From assembly GCF_037975245.1 (NCBI RefSeq), contig NC_092563.1, positions 12,512,001 to 12,576,000 of the forward strand: a stretch of DNA of 64,000 nt, read 5' to 3'. The position numbers and the translations under genes are program-made. Positions 6,201 to 60,024 of the stretch are shown here, piece by piece. The notes under the pieces are model-generated. The model did not search any database and was not told the origin of the DNA. It worked only from the letters and a program-made list of their open reading frames with translations. This DNA is from Apostichopus japonicus (Eukaryota; Echinodermata; Holothuroidea; Aspidochirotida; Stichopodidae). How positions within the stretch are numbered: the first letter of the stretch is position 1; the number at the start of each line of letters is the position of its first letter.

Positions 6201-6516
6201 TTTTGGGGGTTGTTGTTAATATCTGCATGTATATACATGGTGTTTTAAATGTGTTTTGCTTTGTTTGTTTGTCTGTTTTTTTATTGGGGGGGGGGGGTTG
6301 TTTCTATTTGGTATTTTGTTTCGCGTAAACACAGTAGGTAGGTCATTGCAAAATTTTGCACAACTTGTCAATAGAAACCGATCGGAACTTAAGAGTGAAT
6401 AGTAAATTTGATTTCCGTCTCGCTCGTCGCCTTTCACTGGAAATTTTAATGAAAGTATACATAAGGACGAAAACTGTACCTACAAAAGAAAGGCTTCTTT
6501 TGTACAGTGTAAGGCC
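3259..6516. repeat. 3,258-bp unit, copy 2
   Basis: This is a direct repeat of copy 1. It has one more A in the A-run near 4933 and one fewer G in the G-run near 6286; the two changes cancel, so the period stays 3,258. Confidence 0.95.
5825..6011. other. Candidate structured RNA segment (copy 2)
   Basis: Second copy of the segment at 2566-2752, with the same complementary arms and TTCG-capped hairpin. Confidence 0.33.
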
Positions 6517-9500: not shown

Positions 9501-9774
9501 TTTTAAATGTGTTTTGCTTTGTTTGTTTGTCTGTTTTTTTATTGGGGGGGGGGGGTTGTTTCTATTTGGTATTTTGTTTCGCGTAAACACAGTAGGTAGG
9601 TCATTGCAAAATTTTGCACAACTTGTCAATAGAAACCGATCGGAACTTAAGAGTGAATAGTAAATTTGATTTCCGTCTCGCTCGTCGCCTTTCACTGGAA
9701 ATTTTAATGAAAGTATACATAAGGACGAAAACTGTACCTACAAAAGAAAGGCTTCTTTTGTACAGTGTAAGGCC
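6517..9774. repeat. 3,258-bp unit, copy 3
   Basis: This is a direct repeat that shares the A12 and G12 run lengths of copy 2, so copies 2 and 3 are closer to each other than to copy 1. Confidence 0.95.
9083..9269. other. Candidate structured RNA segment (copy 3)
   Basis: Third copy of the segment at 2566-2752. The truncated fourth unit lacks it. Confidence 0.33.
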
Positions 9775-10047
9775 ACCGCGACGTCTTTTCTGACAAGCTT
9801 GATAATATTTGTTCTTCGGGAATGTTGTGTCATTACTTAGCCTTTATAAACCGTTAAATGTGGAAACAGCTATGCTCCTGTTAGAACAACTTCACATTTC
9901 TTAAATGCTGATTTACTGAGGCAGGCGTTTGAAAGACAATGTGATACAAACAGGTACGGTAACGTCATAAACAATGCCACGAGCTCTCCGTGCATTAAAA
10001 ACGATCGAAATGTGCGGTATTCATGACGGTACACAAAGCAGATAATG
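9775..10047. repeat. 3,258-bp unit, truncated copy 4
   Basis: Only the first 273 bp of the unit are present. After GCAGATAATG the sequence leaves the unit and becomes single-copy DNA, 379 bp before the POLR2C start codon. Confidence 0.93.
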
Positions 10048-10426: not shown

Positions 10427-10512
10427 ATGCCGTACGCAAATCAACCCAATGTGACGCTGACGGAGCTAACAGATGACAACATCAAATTTATCCTCGAAGA
10501 CACTGATCTAAG
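10427..10512 (+). CDS. POLR2C: POLR2C exon 1 (coding part)
   Basis: Codes residues 1-28 plus two bases of codon 29. The start is fixed by the conserved MPYANQP beginning. The donor is AG|GTAAGG. A stop codon lies in frame 2 nearby (TAG at 10421) but not in the coding frame. Confidence 0.97.
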
Positions 10513-13500: not shown

Positions 13501-16500
13501 ATGTATCCATTTTCACCTCCTTGGCATTTTCTTTTAATGACCCTACTGTATAATATTTTTTATTTCTTATTGCCATGTCTTATATTTAGCTTCTTTCAGT
13601 ACATGTTTGTGCAGCCCGAGTCATCGATAGGGGAGGGGAGTGGGTAGAGGGAGGGTGATTATAGTGGAGTTCATTTGAATTCTATAGTTGTGCTTAATGT
13701 AAAGTGTAAATTTTTATTGTCCACATCTTTTTGTAAAGAGTGTTGACATGGTATAATGCACTGACGTACTGCCAATACATTATAACAGTTAACATGGATA
13801 AAGTGATAATTTTAAGGCTTCAAACTGAAAATTGTTCTTACGTGTGTCTCACACCTTTACAGTTACAAAGCAACATTATTAATTGTTCAAGATATTTATT
13901 CCTAAGCCACAACCGATCCAACAAAAGGGAAGATAATAAGGAGGAAATAAACACCAGAGTAATAAATTAAATTTGAAGCTTTAGTACCAAAGTCAGGACA
14001 TTATCTTGAAAGTTTTGTCTGACGTATGGAGTATTTATCGCCAAATCTAAGTGGAGGGATTAAATGTTTGGGTGGGTGAGGGGGGGGGGCGGGGGGGGAA
14101 TTTTCTTGTCATGGTAGTGTGTTGTTTACTACTGTACACGTTCGTGCCCAAACACAGAATGGTTGATATACACTAGTATCATATTGGGCAGTGTTTATAA
14201 TGGGGTATACAGGTATAATGTGGCTTTGAACACAAAGATTGATGTTTTCATGCTATATATTATGATGAGTTTCTTTTGTCTGAATTCTGACTCATTGTGT
14301 TAATCAATTGACATGTATGTGACTGTTAACACATTACAGGATTGCACCTGCGAGGAGTTCTGTCCCGATTGCTCGGTGGAGTTCATTCTCGACGTCCGAA
14401 ATGACACCGACGACACCAGACATGTCACATCCAGAGACTTACAGTCAACACATCCTAAAGTTGTACCAGTAAGTAAACAGTGGATATTTATTTTCTTTCG
14501 TTTAAAAAAGAAAAGGAAACAAGAAACTTTATAATTCAAGCTTAAAAATGACATCTCTGATCTGTTGAACTGCCATGGACAAATAACACAAAAACAGATT
14601 AAACTTAAACTGTCTCTGCTAAATTCTATAAGATCTGCATAGACTACTCTACACAAATTCACTTAGTCTGCAAATACATTGTGTACAATTGGTCTGGATT
14701 CTCTTACTATACAGCCATGGGCATCATGAGCTAGTTTGTATCCCTGGGCACAATCATGTCACTGGTCTCCCTGTTGCACTCTACCTACAGTATATATCCC
14801 ATACATTCTGACGTTCTCCTTGCTCAGTGGCTCTAAATTGACTCTCGTCTGGTCTTTATACAGCTACTGCAAAACCGTAGTGTAGTAGTAAACCAAACCA
14901 CTATTAAAAGTGGTGTAAATATTGTCACAATATACTGGATCAAATAGTGTACTTAGTGTATTTGTTATACGTTGTAAAGGATTCGATTTATAACTGTAGT
15001 GTTTCATGGTTTTTTCACAAAACCTTTTGTAAAAGTTATTTCCTGGAACTTTCACTTTCCTAGGTTCCATCCAGACCACGAGAAGATGAGACTAGCGAAT
15101 ACGGAGAAGCCGACGGTATGATCATAGTAACCTTTAGTATCTATTTCGGAATCTGAATTCAAGAGAGTAAAAGTACTGCCAAATATGCTGCAACCCCAAA
15201 CTATGATATAAATCCTTGGACAAGTGATGAAAATAATAAAAAACCATGGAAACTGCAGGGGTTTTTTTTTTAATGAATTTAACATCATATTTTTATGCAA
15301 ATAATATGACTGAAAATGTTTGGCTTCAGAAACTTTCATCAGGTGGGAACACTTTAGGAGTGTTTCTACTTTTGAGTCTGTATGGTTGTAGATCCACTAA
15401 TAAACATGGAGAGGCTTGACTCCGGTCTGATGTTAAATAAAAATCTTTCTGACCAAAATACATTGGGTATCAATAGTTCTCTCTGGCAGAAGTCTGGAAA
15501 ACAGCAGATACTTTGTCAACATCTGGTCTCGTCAAAATTGTTCCGAGCACAGACCTTAGCAGTGCTGCAAGCCCTCGGTATCTGCAATGTCCGTCTCAAA
15601 TGTCCGTCTGAATCTGATGATAAGACAGGCGTCAACACTTGATAGTCATGTTCCTAACGCTAGCCCTGTGATACAACCATCGACACCAAATCGAGGATAT
15701 AATATTAAATCATTTTTATGGTGGGGACAATCTTCTTTATATGGTACTATCATGTAACAGTATGTACAGTATATCTTGCTTGTACTTGATAAATGATTGG
15801 AACTGCTGGTTCTGTCAGTACAAGTGTTTTGAGGCATGATGTGTGAAGAGAGTCTAGAATGGTACCAGCATTAGAACATTGTCTCCCTACATGCTGTTTT
15901 AACAATACCAGAGAGTTCCTACTGACTTTGAACAGTTTGGTGGATGTCCTACTCAAAAAGCTCCAAGTTTTTAATCATCCTTGAAAAGTCAGTCAACTGC
16001 CTTGGGGGGGGGGGGGATGGGGGGTATCACACATTGAAGCAAAATAATGTGGTTTCAAAGATTTGACATAAAAACTTAAATGGAAGTTTATCTCACTCAT
16101 TGTTATATTTATGCAGTATTTTTCATAAGTGATTGGAAGTTTTTACTCATCCATAATTCCCAGAATGTCATACATTGCAAGATTTTTCTCGTATATTTGA
16201 AGCTGCAAATTGCAGTTAATAGTTATGAGCTACAAGAATTTTCGTACCACATCTTTACAGTACAACTCACTAAATCATCACTTATTACATTTATGATTAT
16301 TATTTTACTCTAACTCTTATAGATATTTTGATAGTGAAACTCAATCGAAGTCAGGAGCTCAAGTTCAGAGCATTTGGAAGGAAAGGATTTGGTAAGGAGC
16401 ATGCCAAGTGGATCCCGACGGCTGCAGTTTCCTTCGAGTACGACCCTGATAATGCTTTAAGACACACCTTGTATCCTAATCCAGCTGATTGGCCTCGAAG

Positions 16501-19500
16501 TGAATTCACAGAGTTGGACGAAGACTCAGACAAAAGTAATTGCCTCTCCTAACATGTACCAAGTCCTGCTACAGTAGCCTTCTGTTTTAAACAAATTTCA
16601 AACAGGCAAAGCAATATATGCCCTCTTCAAAGCTAAAGCATCAGCTGTAAAACTATTGCAAAACTAACAAAAGTTAAGACAAGCAGAAAAGAGGAGGGGG
16701 GGGGGGGGTAGATAGGAATGTGTAGATACTAGTGGGTTTTTTCCTCAAAAGTATTATATGATTTGATCTAATAATCTGCAAACCCAATGAAAATTCAAAC
16801 TTGTTCATGATTAGATTTTCTCACCAACTCTTTTAAACCCTGTTAAGGTCTCTTTCAAAAATACTGTAGTATTTCATGATGTGTTATCTGGATTCTATTC
16901 AGAGGACTGGTTCTTTTGTAGTATTGGCAGGCCAGTGATAAAGAAGATGAGTTTTACCCTAGTTTCCATTCAGTAAGGTACTTTAGAATGATTTAAATGT
17001 TAGCAACGTTTTATTGGAACCAAGATAATTTAAGCACTGTACAGCACATTTCAGACTGAGTAGGCCACACAATGTGTGATGCAGCATAGATATACAATGT
17101 ACTGTACAGCACATTTCAGACTGAGTAGGCCACACAATGTGTGATGCAGCATAGATATACAATGTACTGTACAGCACATTTCAGACTGAGTAGGCCACAC
17201 AATGTGTGATGCAGCATAGATATACAATGTACTGTACAGCACATTTCAGACTGAGTAGGCCACACAATGTGTGATGCAGCATAGATATACAATGTACTGT
17301 ACAGCACATTTCAGACTGAGTGGGCCACACATTGTGTGATGCAGCATAGATATACAATGTACTGTACAGCACATTTCAGACTGAGTGGGCCACACAATGT
17401 GTGATGCAGCATAGATATACAATGGACTGTACAGCACATTTCAGACTGAGTAGGCCACACAATGTGTGATGCAGCATAGATATACAATGTACTGTACAGC
17501 ACATTTCAGACTGAGTAGGCCACACAATGTGTGATGCAGCATAGATATACAATGTACTGTGCAGTACATTTCAGACTGAGTGGGCCACACATTGTGTGAT
17601 GCAGCATAGATATACAATGTACTGTACAGCACATTTCAGACTGAGTAGGCCACACATTGTGTGATGCAGCATAGATATACAATGTACTGTGCAGTACATT
17701 TCAGACTGAGTAGGCCACACATTGTGTGATGCAGCATAGATATACAATGTACTGTACAGTACATTTCAGACTGAGTAGGCCACACATTGTGTGATGCAGC
17801 ATAGATATACAATGTACTGTGCAGTACATTTCAGACTGAGTGGGCCACACAATGTGTGATGCAGCATAGATATACAATGTACTGTGCAGCACATTTCAGA
17901 CTGAGTAGGCCACACATTGTGTGATGCAGCATAGATATACAATGTACTGTACAGTACATTTCAGACTGAGTGGGCCACACATTGTGTGATGCAGCATAGA
18001 TATACAATGTACTGTGCAGCACATTTCAGACTGAGTGGGCCACACATTGTGTGATGGAGCATAGATATACAATGTACTGTACAGCACATTTCAGACTGAG
18101 TAGGCCACACATTGTGTGATGCAGCATAGATATACAATGTACTGTACAGCACATTTCAGACTGAGTAGGCCACACATTGTGTGATGCAGCATAGATATAC
18201 AATGTACTGTACAGCACATTTCAGACTGAGTAGGCCACACATTGTGTGATGCAGCATAGATATACAATGTACTGTACAGCACATTTCAGACTGAGTGGGC
18301 CACACATTGTGTGATGCAGCATAGATATACAATGTACTGTACAGTACATTTCAGACTGAGTAGGCCACACAATGTGTGATGCAGCATAGATATACAATGT
18401 ACTGTACAGCACATTTCAGACTGAGTAGGCCACACAGTGTGATGCAGCATAGATATACAATGTACTGTACAGTACATTTCAGACTGAGTAGGCCACACAT
18501 TGTGTGATGCAGCATAGATATACAATGTACTGTACAGCACATTTCAGACTGAGTAGGCCACACAATGTGTGATACAGCATAGATATACAATGTACTGTAC
18601 AGTACATTTCAGACTGAGTGGGCCACACAATGTGTGATGCAGCATAGATATACAATGTACTGTACAGCACATTTCAGACTGAGTAGGCCACACAGTGTGA
18701 TGCAGCATAGATATACAATGTACTGTACAGTACATTTCAGACTGAGTAGGCCACACAATGTGTGATGCAGCATAGATATACAATGTACTGTACAGCACAT
18801 TTCAGACTGAGTAGGCCACACAGTGTGATGCAGCATAGATATACAATGTACTGTACAGTACATTTCAGACTGAGTAGGCCACACATTGTGTGATGCAGCA
18901 TAGATATACAATGTACTGTACAGCACATTTCAGACTGAGTAGGCCACACAATGTGTGATACAGCATAGATATACAATGTACTGTACAGTACATTTCAGAC
19001 TGAGTAGGCCACACATTGTGTGATGCAGCATAGATATACAATGTACTGTACAGCACATTTCAGACTGAGTAGGCCACACAATGTGTGATACAGCATAGAT
19101 ATACAATGTACTGTACAGCACATTTCAGACTGAGTAGGCCACACAATGTGTGATACAGCATAGATATACAATGTACTGTACAGTACATTTCAGACTGAGT
19201 GGGCCACACAATGTGTGATACAGCATAGATATACAATGTACTGTACAGTACATTTCAGACTGAGTAGGCCACACATTGTGTGATGCAGCATAGATATACA
19301 ATGTACTGTACAGCACATTTCAGACTGAGTAGGCCACACAATGTGTGATACAGCATAGATATACAATGTACTGTACAGCACATTTCAGACTGAGTAGGCC
19401 ACACAATGTGTGATGCAGCATAGATATACAATGTACTGTACAGCACATTTCAGACTGAGTAGGCCACACATTGTGTGATGCAGCATAGATATATACAATG

Positions 19501-20133
19501 TACTGTACAGCACATTTCAGACTGAGTAGGCCACACAATGTGTGATGCAGCATAGATATATACAATGTACTGTACAGCACATTTCAGACTGAGTAGGCCA
19601 CACAATGTGTGATGCAGCATAGATATACAATGTACTGTACAGCACATTTCAGACTGAGTAGGCCACACATTGTGTGATGCAGCATAGATATATACAATGT
19701 ACTGTACAGCACATTTCAGACTGAGTAGGCCACACAATGTGTGATGCAGCATAGATATACAATGTACTGTACAGCACATTTCAGACTGAGTAGGCCACAC
19801 AATGTGTGATGCAGCATAGATATATACAATGTACTGTACAGCACATTTCAGACTGAGTAGGCCACACAATGTGTGATGCAGCATAGATATATACAATGTA
19901 CTCCTGCAAATTTGTCATTGTCCTGTTTTTGTTTCCTTTGTTTGCTAGCTCAAGCCGATTACGAGCCTGAAAGACAGAGGCCCAACAAATTCTGGATAAA
20001 TGTCGAGTCAATTGGCTCGCTGAAACCTGAAGTTGTCATGATGACCGGCCTTGCGGTGCTGAAGAAGAAACTGAGTGACCTACAGACACAGCTGAGCCAT
20101 GAAATGCAGGCAGAAGGCTTAGCGATCAATTAA
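10427..20133 (+). CDS. POLR2C: RNA polymerase II subunit RPB3 (complete, 7 exons)
   Basis: Joining 10427-10512, 11881-11999, 13313-13365, 14340-14468, 15064-15115, 16323-16535 and 19949-20133 gives 837 nt: 278 codons plus TAA. All six introns are GT-AG and keep phase. The product begins [18 protein letters not shown] and ends [16 protein letters not shown] plus AEGLAIN, collinear with animal RPB3 (275 residues in human). Known role: RPB3 pairs with RPB11 as the alpha-like platform on which RNA polymerase II assembles in the nucleus. The N-terminal part (about residues 10-50) and C-terminal helix (about 225-270) form the RPB11 dimerisation domain; the middle is the RPB3/RpoA insert domain. Zinc ligands are visible as C88, C90, C94 and C97 in [21 protein letters not shown] (exon 6) is another family hallmark. 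No frameshift or missing key residue is seen. Confidence 0.98.
10513..11880 (+). other. POLR2C intron 1
   Basis: AT-rich intron of 1,368 bp. Immediately after the donor are three copies of GACAGGTTCCTAGG (10522-10570). No gene or mobile element is recognised in the rest. Confidence 0.85.
11881..11999 (+). CDS. POLR2C: POLR2C exon 2
   Basis: Codes [20 protein letters not shown] and following residues up to EFIAQRV. The acceptor is TTTCTCTTTAG, the donor G|GTGAGT. The segment is the conserved dimerisation-domain core; human has VANSIRR in the same place. Confidence 0.97.
12000..13312 (+). other. POLR2C intron 2
   Basis: A 1,313-bp intron. It carries one tRNA-derived SINE (about 12783-13030) and short ATAACATAGCAATA duplications just upstream of it. 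Nothing else is recognised. Confidence 0.85.
12783..13030 (+). mobile_element. tRNA-derived SINE, plus strand
   Basis: The head has a Pol III A-box-like TAGCTCAGTGATTAACGC and a B-box GGTTCGAGTC about 35 bp later, as in a degenerate tRNA. The body runs through AGAGACTGACTTCAGCTGG and GATAAGCCAATGAGGCTTC to TGCTTGCAGGAGGATCTAG and an ATAC/GTAC-type tail. A second copy of the body, inverted, is at 29734-29850, which shows that this is a dispersed family. Exact ends are uncertain because no clear target duplication was found. Confidence 0.8.
13313..13365 (+). CDS. POLR2C: POLR2C exon 3
   Basis: A 53-nt exon coding [18 protein letters not shown], matching the family segment GLIPL-(S)D-(D/E)-VDK. 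The acceptor is TTTTTCCAG, the donor AGG|GTAAAT. Confidence 0.97.
13366..14339 (+). other. POLR2C intron 3
   Basis: A 974-bp AT-rich intron with a G-rich tract at about 14070-14100. The 76-codon frame inside it (13740-13970) looks random. No element is recognised. Confidence 0.8.
14340..14468 (+). CDS. POLR2C: POLR2C exon 4, zinc-binding segment
   Basis: Exactly 43 codons in phase 0. It holds the CxC-x3-CxxC zinc motif and the conserved TRHVTSRDL stretch. The donor is CCA|GTAAGT. Confidence 0.98.
14469..15063 (+). other. POLR2C intron 4
   Basis: A 595-bp AT-rich intron. Nothing recognisable beyond the splice sites. Confidence 0.85.
15064..15115 (+). CDS. POLR2C: POLR2C exon 5
   Basis: Codes [17 protein letters not shown], the variable acidic linker of the insert domain. 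It has the same length as the human linker but poor identity, as expected there. The acceptor is TTTCCTAG, the donor G|GTATGA. Confidence 0.93.
15116..16322 (+). other. POLR2C intron 5
   Basis: A 1,207-bp intron with a G-run near 16005-16015. Open frames on both strands have no recognisable similarity. Confidence 0.85.
16323..16535 (+). CDS. POLR2C: POLR2C exon 6
   Basis: The largest coding exon (213 nt). It carries [17 protein letters not shown] and [12 protein letters not shown], all RPB3 hallmarks. The donor AAAA|GTAATT is weaker than the others. It opens the 3.4-kb intron that holds the 65-bp repeat array. Confidence 0.97.
16536..19948 (+). other. POLR2C intron 6
   Basis: The longest POLR2C intron (3,413 bp). 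The first 500 bp are plain AT-rich sequence with a G-run near 16697-16708; the remainder is almost entirely the 65-bp array. Confidence 0.9.
17038..19902. repeat. 65-bp minisatellite, about 44 copies, inside POLR2C intron 6
   Basis: The unit contains ACATTTCAGACTGAGTAGGC, CACACAATGTGTGATGCAGC and ATAGATATACAATGTACTGT. Copies are over 90% alike. The variable sites are few: A/T at the middle of CACACA[A/T]TGTGTG, C/T in CAG[C/T]ACATT, A/G in GAGT[A/G]GGCC, G/A in TGAT[G/A]CAGC, A/G in TGT[A/G]CAG. 63-bp variants (CACACAGTGTG) sit near 18434, 18692 and 18820. Longer variants with an extra TA (GATATATACAATG) cluster after 19480. Minus-strand frames of 60-148 codons are by-products of the repeat. 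Confidence 0.98.
19949..20133 (+). CDS. POLR2C: POLR2C exon 7 and stop
   Basis: Codes residues 219-278 and TAA, including INVESIGSL and [14 protein letters not shown], the C-terminal dimerisation helix. The acceptor is TTTGTTTGCTAG, only about 48 bp after the last 65-bp repeat. Confidence 0.97.
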
Positions 20134-28400: not shown

Positions 28401-31400
28401 ATTTAAATATTTAATCTCCCTGTGAAAGTGCCACAAATGGGCAAAACAAGAAAACTTTATACAAAATTCATTCATACCAAGATATGAGTCATCCTGTTGT
28501 CAAAATTAAACTATTAAACATATCATCTTAATTCTGTATTATTATTATTTTTCCTTTTTTTTTCTTTAAACCAATATCTGGTGTGCTGACTGCATGAACC
28601 ACTCTTACAATTTATATTCTGTTTTAAGAGCTAACCAACAATTGTGTGTATACTTCTAATCACTACAGTTAAGTACTTATAAGTATTATTTTGTTTTGTT
28701 ATTTATTACTAATGAGCTTGTTGGACAGAGCGTTACTGTTTACATTAAGACACTAAAGCAACCCCTTTGCTATAGTTAGATGAAAATGTTCAGTTTAGGA
28801 CACATCCTGACATACATGTACCATATAGATACTACTTTAACACCTTATTGGCAATCTTGCTATACAAGTTATGGTTGTCATAGTTTAAACTTGTCAAATT
28901 ACCAAACTGATGAAAAAAAGACAGCTTGTATTTTACTCTCTGGTCAATATTGTCAGCAGCAATTGCATACATCACGTTTCACTAAAAAGTATCAGTTGTT
29001 CTAGAAGATGAACGGGAATTGGAACTATCACTGAACTTAACACAGCAGTTATTGGACAAGTGCTAAATAGCCCAGAATACTTTGGTTTTGCTAGGTCAGC
29101 AGCACACATATGTTATGCACTCTATAACACCATGCAGGTATTGTATTGCAGGTATTGTAAAACTGCATGCCAACCTGTTATTACTAGTGTTTTAAAATGT
29201 GGTTTCACACCCTATGTTCTTCACCAGAGACAATACAACACATAATGCTAAGTTTATAGACTAACATTTTCAACAGACTTCTTTCAGTTATTACTATCGA
29301 ATGTGACATCAAATATGTCCTTAATGTATCCATAGGTTCTTATTATTCTTCTTATTTTTAATAATACTGGGCAGGTTTGATCAAATTGCTGACCAGACAC
29401 AGAGAAGTCCTTTAACATTTAAAGCAACATATTGAGTAAGCATTGAGTCTCTTGTTGAGGAAGTTGGATGCTTGATATAAGAATCCATGAATGTTTATAG
29501 CTAATTAACCACACAAGGTTCCTGTTAGTTATTAGCAGTAATGCAGTTTCTCAAAGCATTCATAAAATTCTCCTTTTTAACAGAACTAATGTAATGTTTA
29601 ACATTGTTATCTTTCTCCTTAGTGATAATTGGGAAATTTGGTCAAAATTGAGAAATACGCACAAAAAGCCTGTTTTATGTCAACAACCCAAACCAAATTG
29701 TTGAATATGATTTATCTACTAAACAACACAAACATGTATGTATGTATGTATATTAGATCCTCCTGCAAGCAGGAACTCGCGAAGAAGCCATCATTGGCTT
29801 ATCAAAGCCGCATGCTGACCGAAGTCAGTCTCTTAGATTCATATTTGGTAATTCACATAGTAATTCAATTCTGTTTCCTCTTTAATAATCAGATAAACGA
29901 AGTGTTAAGAAACTGTACAGGGTTGTTCATCTTATCTGCTAACTGTGCGCTTTGATTGGTTAGTTCAACCACCCATATTATAAATAGGATTACTGACAGG
30001 GATTCCCACTTAATATCAAAACATAAGATTTCATTAATGTCATATTATATAAAGCAGTGACCAAACAAGGGTATTCCACGGTAGAAAGTTTGCATTGCAA
30101 CATCTTTAATGAATACATTTCCTAACGAAGAGGAAAAGAATCAAACTGCTTCTCACAGCATCGTTTCTACTTAATATGTTAAATGTGGTTGTTATATTAT
30201 TATGATACAGCAAATGATGTGAGAGTAATGTTCACAATTAGCTTTTGAAATTGTATTATGTAACACTGAACAAACCAATCTCCCTCTTTGGGCAATCACT
30301 TTAACACACACTAGAATGTTGTGTGATTACATTCATTATGCAAATTTTCATGAAATACACAAAATGAGTTTTGTCACTACGCATCTACCTGATCACACCT
30401 GGTTGCTTCAGGTTGATGTTTATTAATAAAAATATGTATCCAGCTCCAAGTCTTTTACGAAGATGACAACACAAAAAAATGACAAAGTAAGATATTAATT
30501 TGGCTGAACATGTGCATCCCTGAGCTATTGTTTTAATTAAGGCCATCGTCCAGCTCATATACACTTATTAAACTGACCTTCCTGGACTGCTGCGGGATCT
30601 ACGTCCAGCTTTCTTTTTAGACTTGCGATTCTGGAAAGGATGAGGAGGGGGCATGAGCTGTAAAGTAGGGCAAAAAGCAGATGAACTGATCAAATAAACT
30701 CAACAGAAACAAAAAATATATATAACAACAACAACAACAAAAGAGAACAAAATATCAAAAACTGAAATGACAATTTGAAAAGTAAAGAATACATTAATTG
30801 GTATATCTACTTCATGACATATCTGTTTCTTACATCATATATTCCTGCTTTAATCATGTCCAGCATGTAATTTGGTAGGTAGCTATATTTCAAGGGCATA
30901 TCAATTATTTATAATAGTGCCTCTCTATACGCTCTATATTATGATTGTCTATATCCATGCTCAGATATCACCAGCATGCAACGTAGTGGGTGGCTATATG
31001 ACCATATGTAGAACCTAGTGCACTATAATTTGTATCCATGCTCTATATTATGTTTGTCTATACTATATATCCATTCTCAAATATCACCAGCATGCAATGT
31101 AGTGGGTGGCTATATGACCATATGTAGAACCTAGTGCACTATAATTTGTATCCATGCTCTATATTATGTTTGTCTGTACTATATATCCATTCTCAAATAT
31201 CACCAGCATGCAACGTAGTGGGTGGCTATATGACCATATGTAGAACCTAGTGCACTATAATTTGTATCCATGCTCTATATTATGTTTGTCTGTACTATAT
31301 ATCCATGCTCAAATATCACCATCATGCAAAGTAGTGGGTGGCTATATGACCATATGTAGAACCTAGTGCTCTATAATTTGTATCCACGCTCTATATTATG

Positions 31401-34400
31401 TTTGTCTATACTATATATATCCATGCTCAAATATCACCATCATGCAACGTGGCTATATGACCATATGGTGGCTATATGACCATACGTAGAACCGAGTGCT
31501 CTATAATTTGTATCCATGCTCTATATTATGTTTGTCTATACTATATATCCATGCTCAAATATCACCTTCATGCAATGTAGTGGATGGCTATATGACCACC
31601 CTAGTGCTCTATAATTTGTATCCATGCTCTATATTATGTTTGCCTTTACTATATATCCATGCTCAAATATTACCAGCATGCAACGTAGTGGGTGGCTATA
31701 TGACCAAATGTAGAACCTAGTGCTCTATAATTTGTATCCATGCTCTATAGTATGTTTGTCTGTACTATATATCCATGCTCAAATATCACCATCATGCAAC
31801 GCAGTGGGTGGCTTTATGACCATATGTAGAACCAGGTGCTCTATAATTTGTGTCCATGCTCTATATTATGTTTGTCTGTACTATATATCCATGCTCAAAT
31901 ATCACCATCATGCACCGCAGTGGGTGGCTTTATGACCATATGTAGAACCAGGTGCTCTATAATTTGTATCCATGCTCTATATTATGTTTGTCTATACTAT
32001 ATATCCATGCTCAAATATTACCAGCATGCAACATACTTTAGTGGGTGGCTTTATGACCATATGTAGAACCTAGTGCTGTATAATTTGTATCCATGCTCTA
32101 TATTATGTTTGTCTATACTTTATATCCATGCTCAAATATCACCATCATGCAACGTACTGTAGTGGGTGGCTTTATGACCATATGTAGAACCTAGTGCACT
32201 ATAATTTGTATCCATGCTCTATAGTATGTTTGTCTATTCTATATATCCATGCTCAAATATTACCAGCATACAACGTACTGTAGTGGGTGGCTTTATGACC
32301 ATATGTAGAACCTAGTGCACTATAATTTGTATCCATGCTCTATAGTATGTTTGTCTATTCTATATATCCATGCTCAAATATTACCAGCATGCAACATAGT
32401 GGGTGGCTATGTGACCATATGTAGAACCTAGTGCTCTATAATTTGTATCCATGCTCTATATGATGTTTTTCTATACTATATATCCATGCTCAAATATTAC
32501 CAGCATACAACGTACTGTAGTGGGTGGCTTTATGACCATATGTAGAACCTAGTGCACTATAATTTGTATCCATGCTCTATATTATGTTTGTCTATTCTAT
32601 ATATCCATGCTCAAATATTACCAGCATGCAAAGTAGTGGATGGCTATATGACCATATGTAAAACCTAGTGCTGTATAATTTGTATCCATGCTCTATATTA
32701 TGTTTGTCTGTACTATATATCCATGCTCAAACATCACCATCATGCAACGTAGTGGGTGGCTATATGACAATATGTAGAACCTAGTGCTCTATAATTTGTA
32801 TTCATGCTCTATATTATGTTGTCTTTACTTTATATCCATGCTCAAATATCACCAGCATGCAATGCAGTGGGTGGCTTTATGACCATATGTAGAACTTTGT
32901 GCTCTATAATTTGTATCCATGCTCTATATTATGTTTGTCTATACTATATATCCATGCTCTATATTATGTTTGTCTGTACTATATATCCATGCTCAAATAT
33001 TACCATCATGCAACATAGTGGGTGGCTATATGACCATATGTAGAACCTAGTGCTCTATAATTTGTATCCATGCTCTATATTATGTTTGTCTGTACTATAT
33101 ATCCATGCTCAATTATCACCAGCATGCAACGCAGTGGGTGGCTTTATGACCATATGTAGAACCTAGTGCTCTATAATTTGTATCCACGCTCTATCTTATG
33201 TTTGTCTATACTATATATCCATGCTCAAATATCACCAGCATGCAATGCAGTGGGTGGCTTTATGACCATATGTAGAACTTAGTGCTCTGTAATTTGTATC
33301 CATGCTCTATATTATGTTTGTCTATACTATATATCCATGCTCTATATTATGTTTGTCTGTACTATATATCCATGCTCAAATATTACCATCATGCAACATA
33401 GTGGGTGGCTATATGACCATATGTAGAACCTAGTGCTCTATAATTTGTATCCATGCTCTATATTATGTTTGTCTGTACTATATATCCATGCTCAATTATC
33501 ACCAGCATGCAACGCAGTGGGTGGCTATATGACCATATGTAGAACCTAGTGCTCTATAATTTGTATCCACGCTCTATCTTATGTTTGTCTATACTATATA
33601 TCCATGCTCAGATATTACCAGCATGCAACGTACAGTAGTGGGTTTGCTATGCTTACATTGCCAGGGGATATTGTTTATACATATGACCATATGTAGAACT
33701 TAATGCTCTTTAATTTGTGTTCATTCTCTAAATCATGAATTGATGCTCTAAAAGCTATATATTTATGCTCTTTATACAGCCAGCATTTAAATTGATGTGA
33801 TGCCATGTTAACAGTTTAAGGATGTACATTTTATGTAGATGCGTAACACTTCATGCCCATTAGGCTTTGATGTCATAACACTGATAGATATGAACAGCGT
33901 TTAACTTGGTTTCACATCACAAATCAAGAATTATTTTTCTTATAGAATATGAATATTTAATTCATTGATTACCATAAACTTCCAGTTGCTTTTTGTTAAT
34001 ACGACCAGCATTTGATGTGTTGCCATGTTAATAATTTAAGGATGTATAGTTTATGAACATGCGTAAAACTTCATGCCTGTTACACTTTGATGTCATAACA
34101 CTGATAGAAATGAACAGCATTTAACTTGGTTTCACATCACAAATCAAGATTTTTATTCTGATAGGGTGACTATTAAATCATTGATTTCCATAAACTTCCA
34201 GTTGCTTTTTGTTAATACGACCAGCATTTGATGTGTTGCCATGTTAATAATTTAAGGATGTATAGTTTATGAACATGCGTAACACTTCATGCCCATTACG
34301 CTTTGATGTCATTACACTCATAGAAATGAACAGCATTTAACTTGGTTTCACATCACAAATCAAGAGTTTTATTCTATTAAATCATTGATTTCCATAAACT

Positions 34401-55100: not shown

Positions 55101-58100
55101 TTCATTGAAGTCTGAGAGATATGATGAACCTGCAGAGACATCTACTGGAAAAAAAAATGTTTTTGTTGCCAGATAGGAAAAATAAGTCATTTTTTGGAGT
55201 TTGTCTTATTGTCTACTTTAGTCCAATAATTCCATCTATCGGTGATATTGCTTGGCATCTATCGGTAATTCCGAGTATCCTTTCCAGCTGGGAGATTTGA
55301 TCTTAATTATGAGACTTCTGTCGCACAAAGTTAATAGTGGACCACAGTGAGGTTTCTGTCACCATTACATGTAACTTGCGAGATGACGCTATTCAAGAAC
55401 AGTGCCAAAATATATCTGAAAAAAGCTAAGAGGAAGGATTTAACAGGTCCTACCAGAAATTTAAAAAAAAACATTTACTTACCCCTTGCTGCATTTCCAG
55501 TTACATCAAAAGAAATTTAAAAGAAAAGAGAGAAAAAAAATATGATAAAATGAAAAAACTGACAGAATAACTACTCATTCCTAAAGTTTCATAAGACTGC
55601 TAGGAACTAAAGAAGACAAACCGACTTCACAAAATTGTCCCACCTCACCCCTGTGCTCCCCCCTCCCCCAGCTCTGCCTCCAAAAAATACACACTTCACT
55701 TCCTACCAACAATTCTGACATCTTGAATTTAAAGAGCCAATTTAAAATATAACCCCACAACAAAACCTTTCAACCACCTACACCACCAACAATTTACCTT
55801 CCGTTGACATCTGGTATCTTTTCTAACACCATCCAGAAACGCCCTGACTAAACTTCAAGCAGTCACACGCCCACACATCCAACCATATGCTGTCAACAAA
55901 CTGAGTATCTTGTCCATAATCACCAACAAATGTACCTTCAACCAACATCAAACCAACAAATCCAACTATTAACCTTTTATTAGCAAACCTTACTATCTTG
56001 CCAATAACCACCCACAAGCCTCATTTACATACCTTTAGCCAACTATGAACCCAAACAACCCACCATTTGCCCATGTATCAACACACCTGATATCTCATAA
56101 CCACCCACATACACTTTAGTACCTTCATCTATCCACACACCCACACATATCACCATTTGACTTCAGTCATCTGTGTAACCACCCACAAGCACTATTAGTA
56201 CCTTCATCTATCCACACACCCACACATATCACCATTTTACTTCAGTCATCTGTGTAACCACCCACAAGCACTATTAGTACCTTCATCTATCCACACACCC
56301 ACACATATCACCATTTGACTTCAGTCATCTGTGTAACCACCCACAAACACTATTAGTACCTTCATCTATCCACACACCCACACATATCACCATTTGACTT
56401 CAGTCATCTGTGTAACCACCCACAAGCACTATTAGGACCTTCATCTATCCACACACCCACACATATCACCATTTGACTTCAGTCATCTGTGTAACCACCC
56501 ACAAACACTATTAGTACCTTCATCTATCCAACACACCCACATATCACCATTTTACTTCAGTCATCTGTGTAACCAGGGAGCTGCTACTCTAGCAGCTCCC
56601 TGGCATAACCACCCACAAACACTATTAGTACCTTCATCTATCCACACACCCACACATATCACCATTTTACATCAGTCATCTGTGTAACCACCCACAAACA
56701 CCATAAGTACCTTCATCTATCCACACATCTCACGATGTGCCCTCTATCAATGCACCTTTTATCTCCTAACCACCCACAAACACTATTAGTACCTTCATCT
56801 ATCCACACACCCACACATATCACCATTTGACTTCAGTCATCTGTGTAACCACCCACAAGCACTATTAGTACCTTCATCTATCCACACACCCACACATATC
56901 ACCATTTGACTTCAGTCATCTGTGTAACCACCCACAAGCACTATTAGTACCTTCATTTATCCACACACCCACACATATCACCAGTTTACTTCAGTCATCT
57001 GTGTAACCACCCACAAGCACTATTAGTACCTTCATCTATCCACACAACCACACATATCACCATTTTACTTCAGTCATCTGTGTAACCACCCACAAGCACT
57101 ATTAGTACCTTCATCTATCCACACACCCACACATATCACCATTTGACTTCAGTCATCTGTGTAATCACCCACAAGCACTATTAGTACCTTCATTTATCCA
57201 CACACCCACACATATCACCATTTTACTTCAGTCATCTGTGTAACCACCCACAAGCACTATTAGTACCTTCATCTATCCACACACCCACACATATCACCAT
57301 TTTACTTTCCAGTCATCTGTGTAACCACCCACAAGCACTATTAGTACCTTCATCTATCCACACACCCACACATATCACCATTTGACTTCAGTCATCTGTG
57401 TAACCACCCACAAGCACTATTAGTACCTTCATTTATCCACACACCCACACATATCACCATTTGACTTCAGTCATCTGTGTAACCACCCACAAGCACTATT
57501 AGTACCTTCATCTATCCACACACCCACACATATCACCATTTTACTTCAGTCATCTGTGTAACCACAACAAACACCATAAGTACCTTCATCTATCCAAACA
57601 TCTCAAGATGTGCCCTCTATAAACACACCTTTTATCTCATAACCACCCACAAGCACTATTAGTAGCTTCATCTATCCACACACCCACACATATCACCATT
57701 TGACTTCAGTCATCTGTGTAACCACCCACAAGCACTATTAGTACCTTCATCTATCCACACACCCACACATATCACCATTTGACTTCAGTCATCTGTGTAA
57801 CCACCCACAAGCACTATTAGTACCTTTATTTATCCACGCACCCACACATATCACCATTTTACTTCAGTCATCTGTGTAACCAGGGAGCTGCTACTCTAGC
57901 AGCTCCCTGGCATAACCACCCACAAACACTATTAGTACCTTCATCTATCCACACAACCACACATATCACCATTTGACTTCAGTCATCTGTGTAACCACCC
58001 ACAAACACTATTAGTACCTTCATCTATCCAACACACCCACACATATCACCATTTGACTTCAGTCATCTGTGTAACTACCCACAAACACTATTAGTACCTT

Positions 58101-60024
58101 CATCTATCCAACACACCCACATATCACCATTTTACTTCAGTCATCTGTGTAACCAGGGAGCTGCTACTCTAGCAGCTCCCTGGCATAACCACCCACAAAC
58201 ACTATTAGTACCTTCATCTATCCACACACCCACACATATCACCATTTTACATCAGTCATCTGTGTAACCACCCACAAACACCATAAGTACCTTCATCTAT
58301 CCACACATCTCATGATGTGCCCTCTATCAATGCACCTTTTATCTCATAACCACCCACAAGCACTATTAGTACCTTCATCTATCCACACACCCACACATAT
58401 CACCATTCTACTTCAGTCATCTACCTCCTCTTCATTTGCTCTGCCGCCTTTATCCACAATCAAATCCAATCACTTGCATTTAGTATCAACCTTTGAATCT
58501 CTGTCCTGGTATCCAATGCAACTTATCTTAAACTCTGAGAGGTAAATGATCTTACTAAGCTGTCCATAAAAAATTTACAGTGATGCCACCAAACGGTATT
58601 CACAATACATCAAACAGATTAGATTTCATAGAAATTCAATCATTTTAAACCGATGTGGTAAAGGAAGCTTTATGCATTTGGTCCGCGAACCTTTCAATCA
58701 TCACTCAAAATACGATTGCTGTATGATGATCAAACTATTATAGGCAACCCATAGATTTGCTTATTACTGAATAATGGTTAAAGAGCTATGACACTAACTA
58801 ATGGAGTAAGTTGATTCGATTCTCAACAATGGGTAGCTTTTTCATGTTATGATTAATCATACGTAGAAAGCAAAACTGGAAAACTGTAAAATTGTTTGCT
58901 TTTGCTTAAATATTGGGAATGAAAACTTTGGCTAGTGAAAGCTGGCATGCTAGACAATTTATGAGAGGTTTGAATCAAAGATTGTTGACAAACTAATCAA
59001 GATCAGTTCCCAAAAGCTGATTTTTAGGCTGATCAGGCTAAAGTTTGTAGTAGTAGGCTAGAGGCTTTACATTCAATCCAGGGTTTATCAAATGGTTTTC
59101 ATGCTGATCAAATGGAAGGTGGGAGGCTGACTATCAAGATCTTGCCTCAGATGTAATTTTCATGCCTGGGCTCTCGAGATCAGAGTCTAACTTTTCTTGG
59201 GTTATTTCATACCAGGCATACAGTATCGGGTCTTCTTTTATGGAGAAATTCACCAATTTTTTGCTTCCAACTAAGCATGGTCTTCATTGTGTAGTTCATC
59301 ACAACGGCTCACTGTCTGAAAACAAATCTTGGGAGGTGATATTCGTGTTGGGTCTTTTCCCAATTTGATGTTTATAATTTGATAAGGAAAATTTGGAAGA
59401 AATGGTACAACCACGAAGTTATGATAACATTTATGGTGTTCTATCTATCGGTAGAGAAGGAAGTAATTTGGAATTATGTGTTTTCAAGTTTATAATGGAT
59501 ATGTATAAAATGGGTTTCTAAGTAGCTGGTTGTATTTCATTACCATATTCCAGCTACAATTCACTCAAATAACAGGTGAACTCTATTATCTCCAAGTTTA
59601 CACAAAAATAGCCAGAACAATTGATGTCAATCAGGAATTTAGCCAATAGACCTATACGCAATGTAGGTTAGGCAAAGGCACTTGTTACATGAAACCTACA
59701 AAGCCTTAGGTCTATCACTAATATCATCATTTGTTTTGAAAAGTAACACAATATGTCAATCTTCTAGCTACCTGTTGAGATGTTTATTGTCGACAAAATA
59801 TGAAAATATAATTTCTGATATTCGAGGCTATTTGAAGACAAGAGTGGTTACAAACTGCAGATGCAACCTGCAGAGGCCGGAAATGTCCAGATTTGCAAGT
59901 AACTTTGATAAAATGTTTTGGGAGATGCCAAACTTACCGTTCTCATGTTAACATCTACACCACCCTTGACTGCCATTCTTATCATCTCTTTCTTGCCAAG
60001 TTTAGCTCCCCAATGCATCACAGT
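25344..60024 (-). CDS. Ankyrin-repeat protein, SOWAH-like (3' part, N-terminus missing)
   Basis: This gene is assembled from phase-matched exons on the minus strand. The core order is 59938-60024, 55483-55488, 52867-52939, 51091-51388. The core reads TVMHWGAKLGKKEM, then VNMRT-QG-GYTALHIAAMHN, then EIRDYSGRKPHHHL: two ankyrin repeats followed by the RDYSG(R/K)K segment typical of sosondowah (SOWAH) proteins. The next 70 residues are Pro/Ser/basic and likely disordered. From the phase-2 donor at 51091, three exon sets are phase-compatible: 48011-48038 then 47117-47194; 46840-46892 then 44067-44191; 36638-36661, 35058-35202, 30578-30630, 25344-25419. SOWAH proteins are poorly characterised; ankyrin repeats bind proteins. 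The SOWAH N-terminal domain was not found in the 4 kb upstream and probably lies outside the window. Family assignment is from recalled motif similarity, not alignment. Confidence 0.6.
26683..26772. repeat. Polypurine GGGGAAGG tract
   Basis: About 90 bp almost only of G and A on the plus strand, built from GGGGAAGG and GGAGG motifs. It is capable of triplex or G-quadruplex structure. Confidence 0.9.
26842..26973. repeat. 33-bp tandem repeat, 4 copies
   Basis: The unit AACTTTTACACTAACTTAC plus ACAATAACAGTGCA starts at 26842, 26875, 26908 and 26941. The fourth copy has small changes (ACGTTTAC, ACAATGACAG). Confidence 0.95.
27937..28196 (+). mobile_element. 5'-truncated non-LTR retrotransposon 3' end
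   Basis: Translation from 27943 gives DRSFPVAAPMTWNSLPDFLR, then NIHSFERFSVN, an in-frame stop, KLTSLRKHFI and another stop. This is the C-terminus typical of CR1/L2-type reverse transcriptase proteins (x-F-x-V-A-A-P-x-x-W-N-S-L-P). The 3' UTR follows, with GTACAGCGCCCCTGAATGC and CTTTATAAGTTAATAAACAT. The element is dead: truncated, and with a stop inside the conserved segment. Confidence 0.8.
29734..29850 (-). mobile_element. 5'-truncated SINE, minus strand
   Basis: The reverse complement reads AAGAGACTGACTTCGGTCAG, TTTGATAAGCCAATGATGGC, TTCCTGCTTGCAGGAGGATC and an ATAC-repeat tail. It matches the body of the SINE at 12783-13030 but lacks the tRNA head. The tail is the TATG/CATA microsatellite at 29734-29752. 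Confidence 0.8.
30578..30630 (-). CDS. SOWAH-like gene exon, basic Arg/Ser segment
   Basis: 53 nt in phase 0 to 2, acceptor CATCCTTTCCAG and donor AAG|GTCAGT. It codes NRKSKKKAGRRSRSSPG, a strongly basic segment that could act as a nuclear localisation signal (inference). Its phases join the exons at 35058 and 25419 exactly. Confidence 0.65.
30912..33750. repeat. 116-bp minisatellite, about 24 copies
   Basis: The unit contains TGCTCTATAATTTGTATCCA, TGCTCTATATTATGTTTGTC, TATATATCCATGCTCAAATA and GTGGGTGGCTATATGACCAT. Units vary by GCAACGTA versus GCAACGTACTGTA and by ATATGACC versus TTATGACC. Some contain a partial internal duplication of the ATCCATGCTCTATATTATG part (near 32945 and 33330). 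The 70-79 codon plus-strand frames are repeat artefacts. Confidence 0.97.
33779..34413. repeat. About 220-bp tandem repeat, 3 copies
   Basis: Copies start at CCAGCATTT in 33780, 34005 and 34221 (spacing 225 and 216 bp). Shared parts include TAACACTTCATGCCCATTA, CTTTGATGTCAT and TTTAACTTGGTTTCACATC. Copies 2 and 3 are closest. Confidence 0.93.
34764..34958. repeat. 65-bp tandem repeat, 3 copies
   Basis: The unit CCGACAAAGATTTTTACAGT plus GATGCATCAGATTAGAAGTA repeats at 65-bp spacing. The sequence is unrelated to the 65-bp array in POLR2C. Confidence 0.93.
35058..35202 (-). CDS. SOWAH-like gene exon rich in Ser-Pro/Thr-Pro sites
   Basis: 145 nt: one base plus 48 codons, acceptor AGTTCTTTCAG, donor CAC|GTGAGT. 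It codes SVRIWGSADDLDSDRLKTRS, then LTPPKTPPTSPRMRSKSAQL and EGFSKDNH. Several TP and SP dipeptides next to basic residues suggest a disordered region regulated by proline-directed kinases (inference). Confidence 0.65.
36638..36661 (-). CDS. Small exon (24 nt)
   Basis: Acceptor CCTATCTCAG and donor CAG|GTTAGT. The length is divisible by three and it enters and leaves in phase 2, coding IDQRWHA between two split codons. It fits both the donor at 51091 and the acceptor at 35202, so it may be a cassette exon. Confidence 0.45.
39340..39412. repeat. Short TATGTGTCTGATG-type repeat
   Basis: Irregular repeats of GATATGTGTGTTTG, GATATATGTGTCTGATG and TGTGTCTGATATATATG over about 70 bp. Confidence 0.75.
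39455..39510 (+). pseudogene. Possible tiny reverse-transcriptase C-terminal remnant
   Basis: One frame reads YTPTSFAPSFWKTAPSNIK, which resembles the S-F-x-x-A-P-x-x-W-N-S-L-P-x-x-I-(R/K) end of non-LTR reverse transcriptases. The match is short and may be chance. Confidence 0.25.
41855..42712. repeat. 30-bp AT-rich minisatellite, about 28 copies
   Basis: The unit is close to ATAATATCTTATCTGACAAT plus ACTATACTAT. Variants include TCTCACAATAC, TCTGATTATAG and GTTAGCTAAC. It lies in an intron of the minus-strand gene. Confidence 0.95.
43404..43661 (-). pseudogene. Ig V-set-like fragment (decayed)
   Basis: On the minus strand, after CTCCAAAACAG, one frame reads VVCPHVVTGAIETMLPCDF, then HLKDVRTLVFKCNEVDLVVF, KHIVW. 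The L-P-C-D-F strand followed by L-V-F-K-x-N and V-F-K-H resembles the first half of invertebrate V-type Ig domains. The core Trp expected in the K-W-N position is Cys here (TGT instead of TGG). The second half of the domain is absent: after VW the frame becomes hydrophobic and random. Probably an old duplicated exon fragment inside an intron, but similarity is by eye and low in certainty. Confidence 0.35.
44067..44191 (-). CDS. Terminal exon with Lys/Glu-rich helix
   Basis: From acceptor CTGATTTAG, phase 1 reads GDTDLNRKLEDWKARKKQEE, then NQKQKGDNKAKRYSKILTI, FD and TAA. The charged Lys/Glu/Gln stretch is likely helical. There is no GT donor in the exon before the stop, so it appears to be a last exon rather than one that leads to the exons at 36-25 kb. 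Confidence 0.55.
44192..46839 (-). other. Intron between alternative exons, 44.2-46.8 kb
   Basis: AT-rich intron with several C-rich stretches (44525-44545, 45960-45980, 46170-46200) and a G-run at 45833-45842. No exon or mobile element is recognised. Confidence 0.6.
46840..46892 (-). CDS. Alternative exon (53 nt)
   Basis: Consensus acceptor GCTTTACAG and donor CTCG|GTAAGT. The one open frame needs a phase-2 donor upstream (TC + T = Ser) and codes SLSKFANLGSANSPVHL, ending in phase 1. That is exactly what the exon at 44067-44191 needs. Confidence 0.55.
47117..47194 (-). CDS. Possible terminal exon with basic Cys-Cys C-terminus
   Basis: After a CCCACTGTAG acceptor, phase 0 reads TFECSPMKVDEVPDI and then KKKKGKKSCC and TAA. 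It joins in frame only to the 28-nt exon at 48011. A lysine-rich tail ending in Cys-Cys is the kind that is palmitoylated or prenylated at membranes. Against it: the acceptor has a poor pyrimidine tract, and the lysines come from an A-rich stretch that could occur by chance. Confidence 0.35.
   Translation of the reverse strand, partial: TFECSPMKVDEVPDIKKKKGKKSCC
48011..48038 (-). CDS. Small alternative exon (28 nt)
   Basis: TTTTTTTAG acceptor and CAG|GTAAGA donor flank 28 nt. Only one frame is open: it needs a phase-2 donor upstream (TC + T = Ser) and codes ETIKDLHTQ, ending in phase 0. The phase-2 donor at 51091 fits. The exon cannot continue into the 46840 exon without a stop, but it fits the phase-0 terminal exon at 47117-47194. 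Confidence 0.45.
48039..51086 (-). other. Intron, 48.0-51.1 kb
   Basis: About 3 kb of AT-rich sequence. It contains G-rich tracts (48195-48255), a C-run (48620-48631) and nothing recognisable as exon, RNA gene or mobile element. Confidence 0.6.
51091..51388 (-). CDS. SOWAH-like exon: RDYSGRK segment and basic tail
   Basis: After acceptor CCTCCACAACAG the frame continues as EANIEIRDYSGRKPHHHLKS, the end of the ankyrin domain. It then runs through SKLDPSNPYTEDEEMPSPRT, SPFPSRISKIIRNYSTLLKR and NSTLTVFEGKSGSSHHHE. The frame stays open for 98 codons and ends with a phase-2 donor TC|GTAAAC at 51091; without splicing it would stop at TAA 51087. A second, stronger donor A|GTAAGC lies inside the exon at about 51309 (phase 1) and would skip the Pro/Ser tail, so the 3' end may vary. 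Confidence 0.75.
51712..52202. repeat. CAT/CAC trinucleotide-rich array
   Basis: About 490 bp of CATCAC, CATCAT and CACCAC with interspersed TATGCATCACCACCATCA units (12-24 bp periods). It opens overlapping plus-strand frames of His, Ser or Ile/Thr up to 169 codons, which are artefacts of the triplet repeat. It lies in an intron of the minus-strand gene, where the transcript would read ATGATGGTG. Confidence 0.95.
52203..52515 (+). mobile_element. Non-LTR retrotransposon or SINE 3' tail
   Basis: It ends with TTGTAAAGCGCCCTGAGACT and CTGTTACGGGCGCTTAATAA followed by TTTATTATTGTTATT. That is the GC-rich hairpin and ATT-rich tail seen at the 3' ends of many invertebrate retroposons (compare GTACAGCGCCCCTG at 28123). 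GCGCCC and GGGCGC can pair. The 5' limit is uncertain; only the last 80 bp are diagnostic. Confidence 0.6.
52867..52939 (-). CDS. SOWAH-like exon: second ankyrin repeat
   Basis: 73 nt: 24 codons and one base. It codes GYTALHIAAMHNKEAIMQLL and then ISEC. This is a nearly canonical ankyrin repeat (G-x-T-A-L-H-I-A-A-x-x-x-x). The acceptor is TATATTCCAG, the donor TGTG|GTAAAT. Confidence 0.85.
52940..55482 (-). other. Intron between second ankyrin exon and microexon
   Basis: 2.5 kb of AT-rich intron. Apart from the (TAA)n run, no exon, RNA or mobile element is recognised. Confidence 0.6.
52996..53033. repeat. (TAA)n microsatellite
   Basis: About 12 TAA units with one interruption (AAAA). Confidence 0.95.
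55483..55488 (-). CDS. 6-nt microexon coding Gln-Gly
   Basis: CAAGGG sits between acceptor GGAAATGCAG and a perfect donor GTAAGTAAA. It has the right strand and order and adds two codons in phase 0 between the ankyrin exons at 59938 and 52867. With it the junction reads NMRT-QG-GYTALH, which matches the ankyrin linker x-R-T-x-G-G-Y-T; without it two residues are missing. This is inferred from splice signals and repeat geometry; no transcript is available. Confidence 0.65.
56573..56603. repeat. Perfect hairpin insertion 1 in the 79-bp array
   Basis: 14-bp arms (CCAGGGAGCTGCTA and its exact complement) around a CTC loop. The repeat unit is interrupted between TCTGTGT and AACCACCC, and AACCA occurs on both sides of the inserted part. 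Confidence 0.95.
57880..57910. repeat. Perfect hairpin insertion 2 in the 79-bp array
   Basis: Same sequence and same position in the unit as at 56573. Confidence 0.95.
58153..58183. repeat. Perfect hairpin insertion 3 in the 79-bp array
   Basis: Same sequence and position as at 56573. Its flanks on both sides also match those of copy 1 for about 240 bp, which shows that the block was duplicated. Confidence 0.95.
59938..60024 (-). CDS. SOWAH-like exon: first ankyrin repeat
   Basis: Exactly 29 codons in phase 0, with acceptor TTTATTTAG and a consensus donor ACG|GTAAGT. It codes TVMHWGAKLGKKEMIRMAVK and then GGVDVNMRT. The ankyrin signature T-x-L-H-W-A-A-K-x-G is clear, with Met and Gly replacing Leu and Ala. 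The repeat would continue in SOWAH proteins with S/x-G-G-Y-T; the two missing residues are supplied by the microexon at 55483. Confidence 0.75.

Follow-up and report, generated by a model that had tools for sequence, protein, structure and literature searches.

Four candidate microexons of 12, 3, 3 and 6 nucleotides in the ankyrin region of a SOWAH gene of Apostichopus japonicus

Microexons of 3-6 nt, and microexons that neighbour each other, are already known, and the systems closest to the one reported here are the following. The 4-bp microexon of human MPC1, located between long introns, is reported to be constitutive; its major branch points map to -68 and about -64, close to a pyrimidine-rich distal region (PMC9929638). 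Human RPS24 is reported to make alternative use of microexons of 3, 18 and 22 bp located between its exons 4 and 6 (PMC11162997). The neural microexons of the eMIC/SRRM system follow a 3' splice-site code made of a weak proximal acceptor, a long AG-exclusion zone (AGEZ), UGC and UCUC motifs and a strong upstream donor (PMC8797185). Among 411 Drosophila microexons in an exon-microexon-exon arrangement, 283 were alternative and 128 constitutive, and the same source mentions tiny microexons in NCAM (3 nt), Drosophila TnT (3 nt) and chicken cardiac TnT (6 nt) (PMC8042270). Adjacent microexons of 5 and 12 nt have been reported in rice (PMC8831610).

The SOWAH gene analyzed here carries four candidates, designated DFIS, G, F and QG after the residues they would encode. 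It resembles MPC1 in having ultra-short exons between long introns and a distal pyrimidine-rich region upstream. However, MPC1 has a single exon of 4 bp, not a multiple of three, while in SOWAH there are four in-frame candidates for which inclusion is predicted. RPS24 too has a group of neighbouring microexons, with one of 3 bp, but they are alternatively used, whereas in SOWAH exons of 12, 3 and 3 nt are predicted in series within the ankyrin domain, two of them adjacent and of a single codon each. The likeness to the eMIC system lies in the 3' splice-site code of QG and in the eMIC domain encoded by the genome; in contrast, the QG donor is strong and DFIS, G and F are devoid of UGC near the 3' splice site. 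The microexons of NCAM, TnT and rice are alike in size, although they belong to other genes and the available text of their sources describes no series of two adjacent single-codon exons. Within the literature searched we found no case of two such exons in series inside a folded domain. The same search, which left subscription papers mostly outside, returned nothing linking SOWAH to microexons or a 6-nt microexon to an ankyrin repeat.

SOWAH (sosondowah ankyrin-repeat) proteins have an N-terminal winged helix followed by ankyrin repeats with the pattern GFTxLHWAAKHG ... VDVNxRTxGGYTALHxAAMH ... IRDYSGKK. The window, that is, the whole stretch of 64,000 nt analyzed (C3:12512001-12576000 of a 671.6 Mb assembly), holds the 3' part of a minus-strand gene of this family that extends over ~107 kb, and we followed the DNA 180 kb further upstream; positions beyond the window are given as c3 coordinates (contig C3 position minus 12512000), and all exons described are on the minus strand. 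The winged-helix exon E1 (c3 141885-141756) was detected by tblastn with a SOWAH composite (E=5.6e-5). It joins in phase with E2 (c3 137286-137225) and E3 (c3 136169-135717), giving ...KAANKKKFSQIVNEVAKVNIIEGEKFLVLKKKY, and Pfam models found no match on this winged-helix part. A microexon between E2 and E3 was suspected and ruled out, since E2 proved longer than first read and the gap closed. The first ankyrin exon, E4 (c3 97076-96975 = C3:12609076-12608975), was recovered with a SOWAH fragment (tblastn E=2.8e-4). A first search of the whole genome with a SOWAH fragment had found nothing, while local tblastn on the upstream DNA did match; regular-expression searches did not recover the exon upstream of exon A. 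The ankyrin region fits the family pattern, has 37/79 identities to a human SOWAHC fragment and exceeds the cut-off of the Pfam models Ank, Ank_2, Ank_3 and Ank_4. NCBIfam gave five ankyrin-type matches, every one far below cut-off. The finding of E1 together with the ankyrin exons bears out the SOWAH-like identity proposed in the original prediction.

The remaining conventional exons lie within the window. Exon A (60024-59938, 87 nt, phase 0-0) encodes TVMHWGAKLGKKEMIRMAVKGGVDVNMRT between the splice sites TTTATTTAG and GTAAGTTT, and exon B (52939-52867, 73 nt) encodes GYTALHIAAMHNKEAIMQLLISEC(E). Exon C may end in either of two ways. Its short form (51388-51308, 81 nt, ANIEIRDYSGRKPHHHLKSTASSFIK) uses the donor AAAA/GTAAGC, whose first intron base is 51307 and which leads in phase to the candidate last coding exon D (35305-35025, PDERHPAKSLAEQRNKRQSKIGTFFKSQLRSSFRSVRIWGSADDLD...), 16 kb away and proposed from frame and splice sites without a homology search. 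The long form (51388-51087) is read through to a stop and gives a C-terminus ending in SSHHHES. The protein may thus have two C-termini, one via exon D and one via the stop of exon C itself. In the resulting 12-exon model the phases agree throughout and the product has 430 aa; more exons may exist between E3 and E4. When the ankyrin segment was compared with its own genome, five matches appeared. Three were exons A, B and C and the other two came from C22 (L005), where there is a further ankyrin-repeat gene, and from an ankyrin-like gene on C6 (L006), with no second SOWAH copy among the five. On the opposite strand the window contains seven candidate exons of POLR2C (RPB3) at 10427-20130, including a divergent one at 15064 (=1.1), and a 65-bp tandem repeat (17036-19902, 44 copies, 96% match) lies between two of them. 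Other repeats are a unit of about 3.26 kb in three head-to-tail copies (96-9843), with identical ORFs at offsets of 3258, and nested higher-order tandem repeats of 35, 116, 151, 267 and 383 bp (30950-33630).

The original prediction concerned the 6998-nt intron between exons A and B. It held that these exons join in phase leaving a linker two residues short, and that CAAGGG (55488-55483), between a CAG acceptor and a perfect donor, encodes the missing Gln-Gly. The sequence is exactly as claimed. Exon A ends ...AACATGAGAACG/GTAAGTTT in phase 0 (VDVNMRT/gtaagt) and exon B starts TTCCAG/GGCTACACT, also in phase 0 (ttccag/GYTALH). The microexon, likewise in phase 0, is flanked by ...GGAAATGCAG upstream (...ggaaatgcag) and GTAAGTAAATG downstream (gtaagtaaa), with a TGCAG acceptor (...AAATGCAG) and the donor GTAAGTAAA. 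Its 3' splice-site region (55489..55560) presents a distal U/C tract with UCUC, an AG-free stretch of 68 nt, UGC at -5 and a best 15-nt stretch with 15/15 pyrimidines. In size, frame and splice signals the candidate corresponds to a microexon, and the predicted splice product is VNMRT-QG-GYTALH. A shift of the exon A donor or of the exon B acceptor by 6 nt was considered and discarded, as inspection of the sequences indicated that neither can yield the missing residues. Immediately upstream of QG, over 2 kb of the intron (56098-58422) consists of minisatellite arrays with a 79-bp unit, present in about 28 copies distributed over four blocks.

To what extent such a site could appear by chance was estimated in several ways. 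With a simple splice-site matrix (frequencies assumed, not trained), QG ranked first among the 41 sense-strand AG-N6-GT sites of its intron, and only 2 of the 518 others on both strands of the window equalled or beat its summed score. It is the sole YAG-N6-GTRAG in the intron. As acceptor criteria we used an AGEZ of at least 40 nt and at least 12/15 pyrimidines, thresholds chosen after QG was seen and before the other three microexons turned up. Dinucleotide shuffling of the intron (1500 shuffles) produced 928 YAG-N6-GTRAG sites, of which 6 passed the acceptor criteria, 48 coded for x-Gly and 0 did both. Among 10 such sites in 287 kb of strand sequence, QG was the only one that passed. Extending this to 487 kb of strand sequence with the GTRAG donor added one more passing 6-nt site, ATATAT, on the other strand and outside the gene. 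The 18-nt core around QG occurs once in the 671.6-Mb assembly.

When the QG form was searched against PDB with phmmer, 412 distinct chain sequences reached E<=0.001 (best 169.4 bits), and nearly all of the alignments listed (5 chains, parts of each) were ungapped at the junction. Omitting QG reduced this to 350 (best 119.5 bits), and most of the alignments listed (3 chains, parts) then needed a gap of two residues at that point. Five ankyrin loops from two other genes of the same genome, read by eye, are as long as the loop with QG. The claimed shortness of the linker agrees with these alignments and with the human SOWAHC fragment, and the 6-nt exon as the element restoring it is supported by the sequence. 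Pfam Ank_4 (40.9 bits with QG, 35.7 without) and Ank_5 (26.3 and 21.2) favour QG, while Ank_3 is slightly against it (44.6 and 45.1). Ank_2 gave 50.0 with all four microexons, 50.0 without QG, 47.8 without GF, 52.6 without DFIS and 50.4 without any of them. The generic Pfam models are therefore mixed on the microexons and neutral on DFIS. Since the Ank_2 score rises when DFIS is removed, this exon depends on the SOWAH pattern.

One microexon had been predicted; the gene appears to carry four, three of them outside the window. The last residues of E4 are ...DPTLAKKR and the first of exon A are TVMHWGAK, with phase 0 on both sides and an in-frame stop just before exon A. The human SOWAHC fragment, which reads ...LLLRKDFITGFTCLHWAAKHGR in this region, led us to expect six residues like DFITGF between them. 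The assignment of DFIS, G and F rests on this human fragment, of which the two versions used differ here (KDFITGF in one and RDFVTGF in the other); the fragment with KDFITGFTCLHWAAKHGR was fixed before microexons were searched for. The 36,950-nt intron between E4 and A contains, in genomic order, a candidate DFIS exon (c3 81353-81342, cag/GACTTCATTTCT/gtgagt, 12 nt, AGEZ 79), a candidate Gly exon (c3 79621-79619, tag/GGG/gtgagt, 3 nt, AGEZ 131) and a candidate Phe exon (c3 68041-68039, cag/TTT/gtaagt, 3 nt, AGEZ 139). The three were identified by splice sites, order and frame, all are in phase 0 and, joined, they would give AKKR-DFIS-G-F-TVMHWGAK. The two single-codon exons are separated by an intron of 11.6 kb.

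We carried out a strict scan for YAG-Nn-GTRAGT with AGEZ>=40 and at least 12/15 pyrimidines (n=3, 6, 9, 12, 15, 18) over 243.5 kb on both strands. For the donor we settled on GTRAGT, which was among the three forms applied earlier, once DFIS, G and F had been found. Five sites appeared, DFIS, G, F and QG plus a 9-mer on the other strand. For all lengths from 1 to 27 nt there were 8 strict sites, and those on the sense strand within the gene were exactly the four candidates. With the looser GTRAG donor (n<=27) the gene held 5 sense and 5 antisense sites, so that the strand excess hinges on the last base of the donor. The gene also has four longer strict sites on its sense strand (28-51 nt) that the model does not use: the length of three of them is not divisible by 3, and the fourth (33 nt) contains a stop. 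Shuffles of the 36,950-nt intron (400) contained a mean of 0.24 in-frame strict sites (n=1-27) vs 3 observed. None of the 400 reached three sites or spelled [DEN]...G. in 18 nt, and with the looser GTRAG donor 0/300 spelled it. At a length of 3 nt, the 487 kb of strand sequence yielded no strict site other than G and F; the expectation is 0.02 per shuffled intron.

The AGEZ was 68 nt for QG, 79 for DFIS, 131 for G and 139 for F, with a median of 48.5 for 18 control acceptors (8 from an ankyrin gene, 6 from POLR2C and 4 from SOWAH; 5 rows with further AGs near exon starts were dropped; Mann-Whitney p=0.0028). The comparison with the 13 controls having AGEZ>=40 is fairer, because the scan itself demanded this value, and gave p=0.0053. 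All four share a GTRAGT donor, and by the matrix the proximal acceptors of QG (-1.63) and G (0.10) are weak.

From these features we consider it probable that the gene has four phase-0 microexons (12, 3, 3 and 6 nt) that are mostly constitutively included. Large introns would cut the ankyrin region so finely that four of its coding exons are microexons, and the spliced chain ...AKKR-DFIS-G-F-TVMHWGAK...VNMRT-QG-GYTALH... would give their full length to the loops that precede two consecutive ankyrin repeats. The transcript should then contain 24 extra nt, GACTTCATTTCT-GGG-TTT before ACTGTGATG and CAAGGG after ATGAGAACG. The long AG-free stretches (68-139 nt) may allow the branch point and the pyrimidine tract to lie far upstream, easing the crowding of U2 and U1 on a tiny exon, and the GTRAGT donors would support default inclusion of each microexon. 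Such AG-free stretches and donors make inclusion the most likely default, as for the constitutive microexon of MPC1. Besides, the loss of G, F or QG would presumably shorten the loop entering an ankyrin repeat, which also points to inclusion. That there are four of them, all in phase 0, argues for a mostly constitutive chain and against one cassette switch. Tissue-specific skipping, above all of QG, is possible; it would keep the frame and shorten the ankyrin loop. Each microexon could be skipped in frame, and it seems rather unlikely that this is used to give up to 16 variants of the two consecutive loops. An introner-type origin of the extra introns was considered and rejected, the only similarity being one of 52 bp between two of six introns (E 1e-5).

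A different view of QG, compatible with the chain, would be that of an eMIC/SRRM-type neural microexon, included in neurons and skipped elsewhere, with the loop toggled by two residues as in the original prediction. Its proximal acceptor is the weakest of 19 compared (control minimum 0.38). Its AGEZ of 68, UGC at -5, UCUCUC tract and strong upstream donor, read as eMIC features after the site was seen, make it the only one of the four candidates with the whole 3' splice-site code (long AGEZ, UGC, UCUC, weak acceptor). None of the 18 control acceptors combined AGEZ>=60 with UGC no more than 12 nt away and UCUC no more than 50 nt away. An SRRM_C/eMIC domain is encoded in the genome (33.1 bits against a cut-off of 27), and the eMIC core RKRRDSPSFLDRRRITR lies in an SRRM-type gene, in the exon at C15:20692956-20693042 (L015). 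However, taken singly, UGC within 12 nt occurs in 3/18 and UCUC within 50 nt in 6/18 controls, exon D having both, and for DFIS, G and F the first was absent in all and the second present in 1/3. Fly eMIC exons are reported to have weak donors (PMC8797185), a property that the strong GTAAGTAAA of QG does not share. We regard this neural switch as a possibility, on the doubtful side.

The gap upstream of exon A could also be filled in another way, QG being real and the single codons due to chance. A single 18-nt exon encoding DWKGGW (c3 86312-86295 = C3:12598312-12598295, minus strand) would be used by itself or as a mutually exclusive alternative to DFIS-G-F, or else DFIS would be combined with another exon. 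One exon is simpler than three, exons of 3 nt hold almost no sequence information, and DWKGGW fits the D...G-aromatic pattern, keeping the D, G and aromatic positions. Weak single 18-nt sites of this type were seen in 1/300 shuffles, and DWKGGW is not trivially chance. Its splice sites are nevertheless weak (AGEZ 21, 9/15 pyrimidines, donor GTGGGT), while the rare strict 3-nt sites G and F fall in the needed interval with the needed order and residues. As for another exon to accompany DFIS, none of the 17 AG-GGNNNN-(GT/GC/AT) six-mers of the interval had both splice sites good. The other relaxed candidates of the same intron are the 18-nt TKDVML (window 62834-62817), TSNFCP and GSEHIK, which do not fit the D...G pattern, and the 6-nt KF. 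We judge this arrangement improbable. A third possibility is a gene without microexons, in which exon A is spliced directly to exon B and the loop is simply shorter. The phases of A and B permit it and Ank_2 scores the form without QG equally, but the shuffles and the strict scan oppose it, as do the junction gaps in most of the ankyrin alignments listed for that form and the length of the five loops of the two other genes. We consider it very improbable.

If the chain of four microexons is true, annotation can lose whole motifs of a conserved protein when they are coded by exons of 3-12 nt that lie kilobases apart. The gene would offer a natural test of spliceosomal exon definition for serial single-codon exons. 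Another question that would arise is by what route a stretch of 18 coding bases came to be delimited or interrupted by four introns (R/DFIS/G/F/T).
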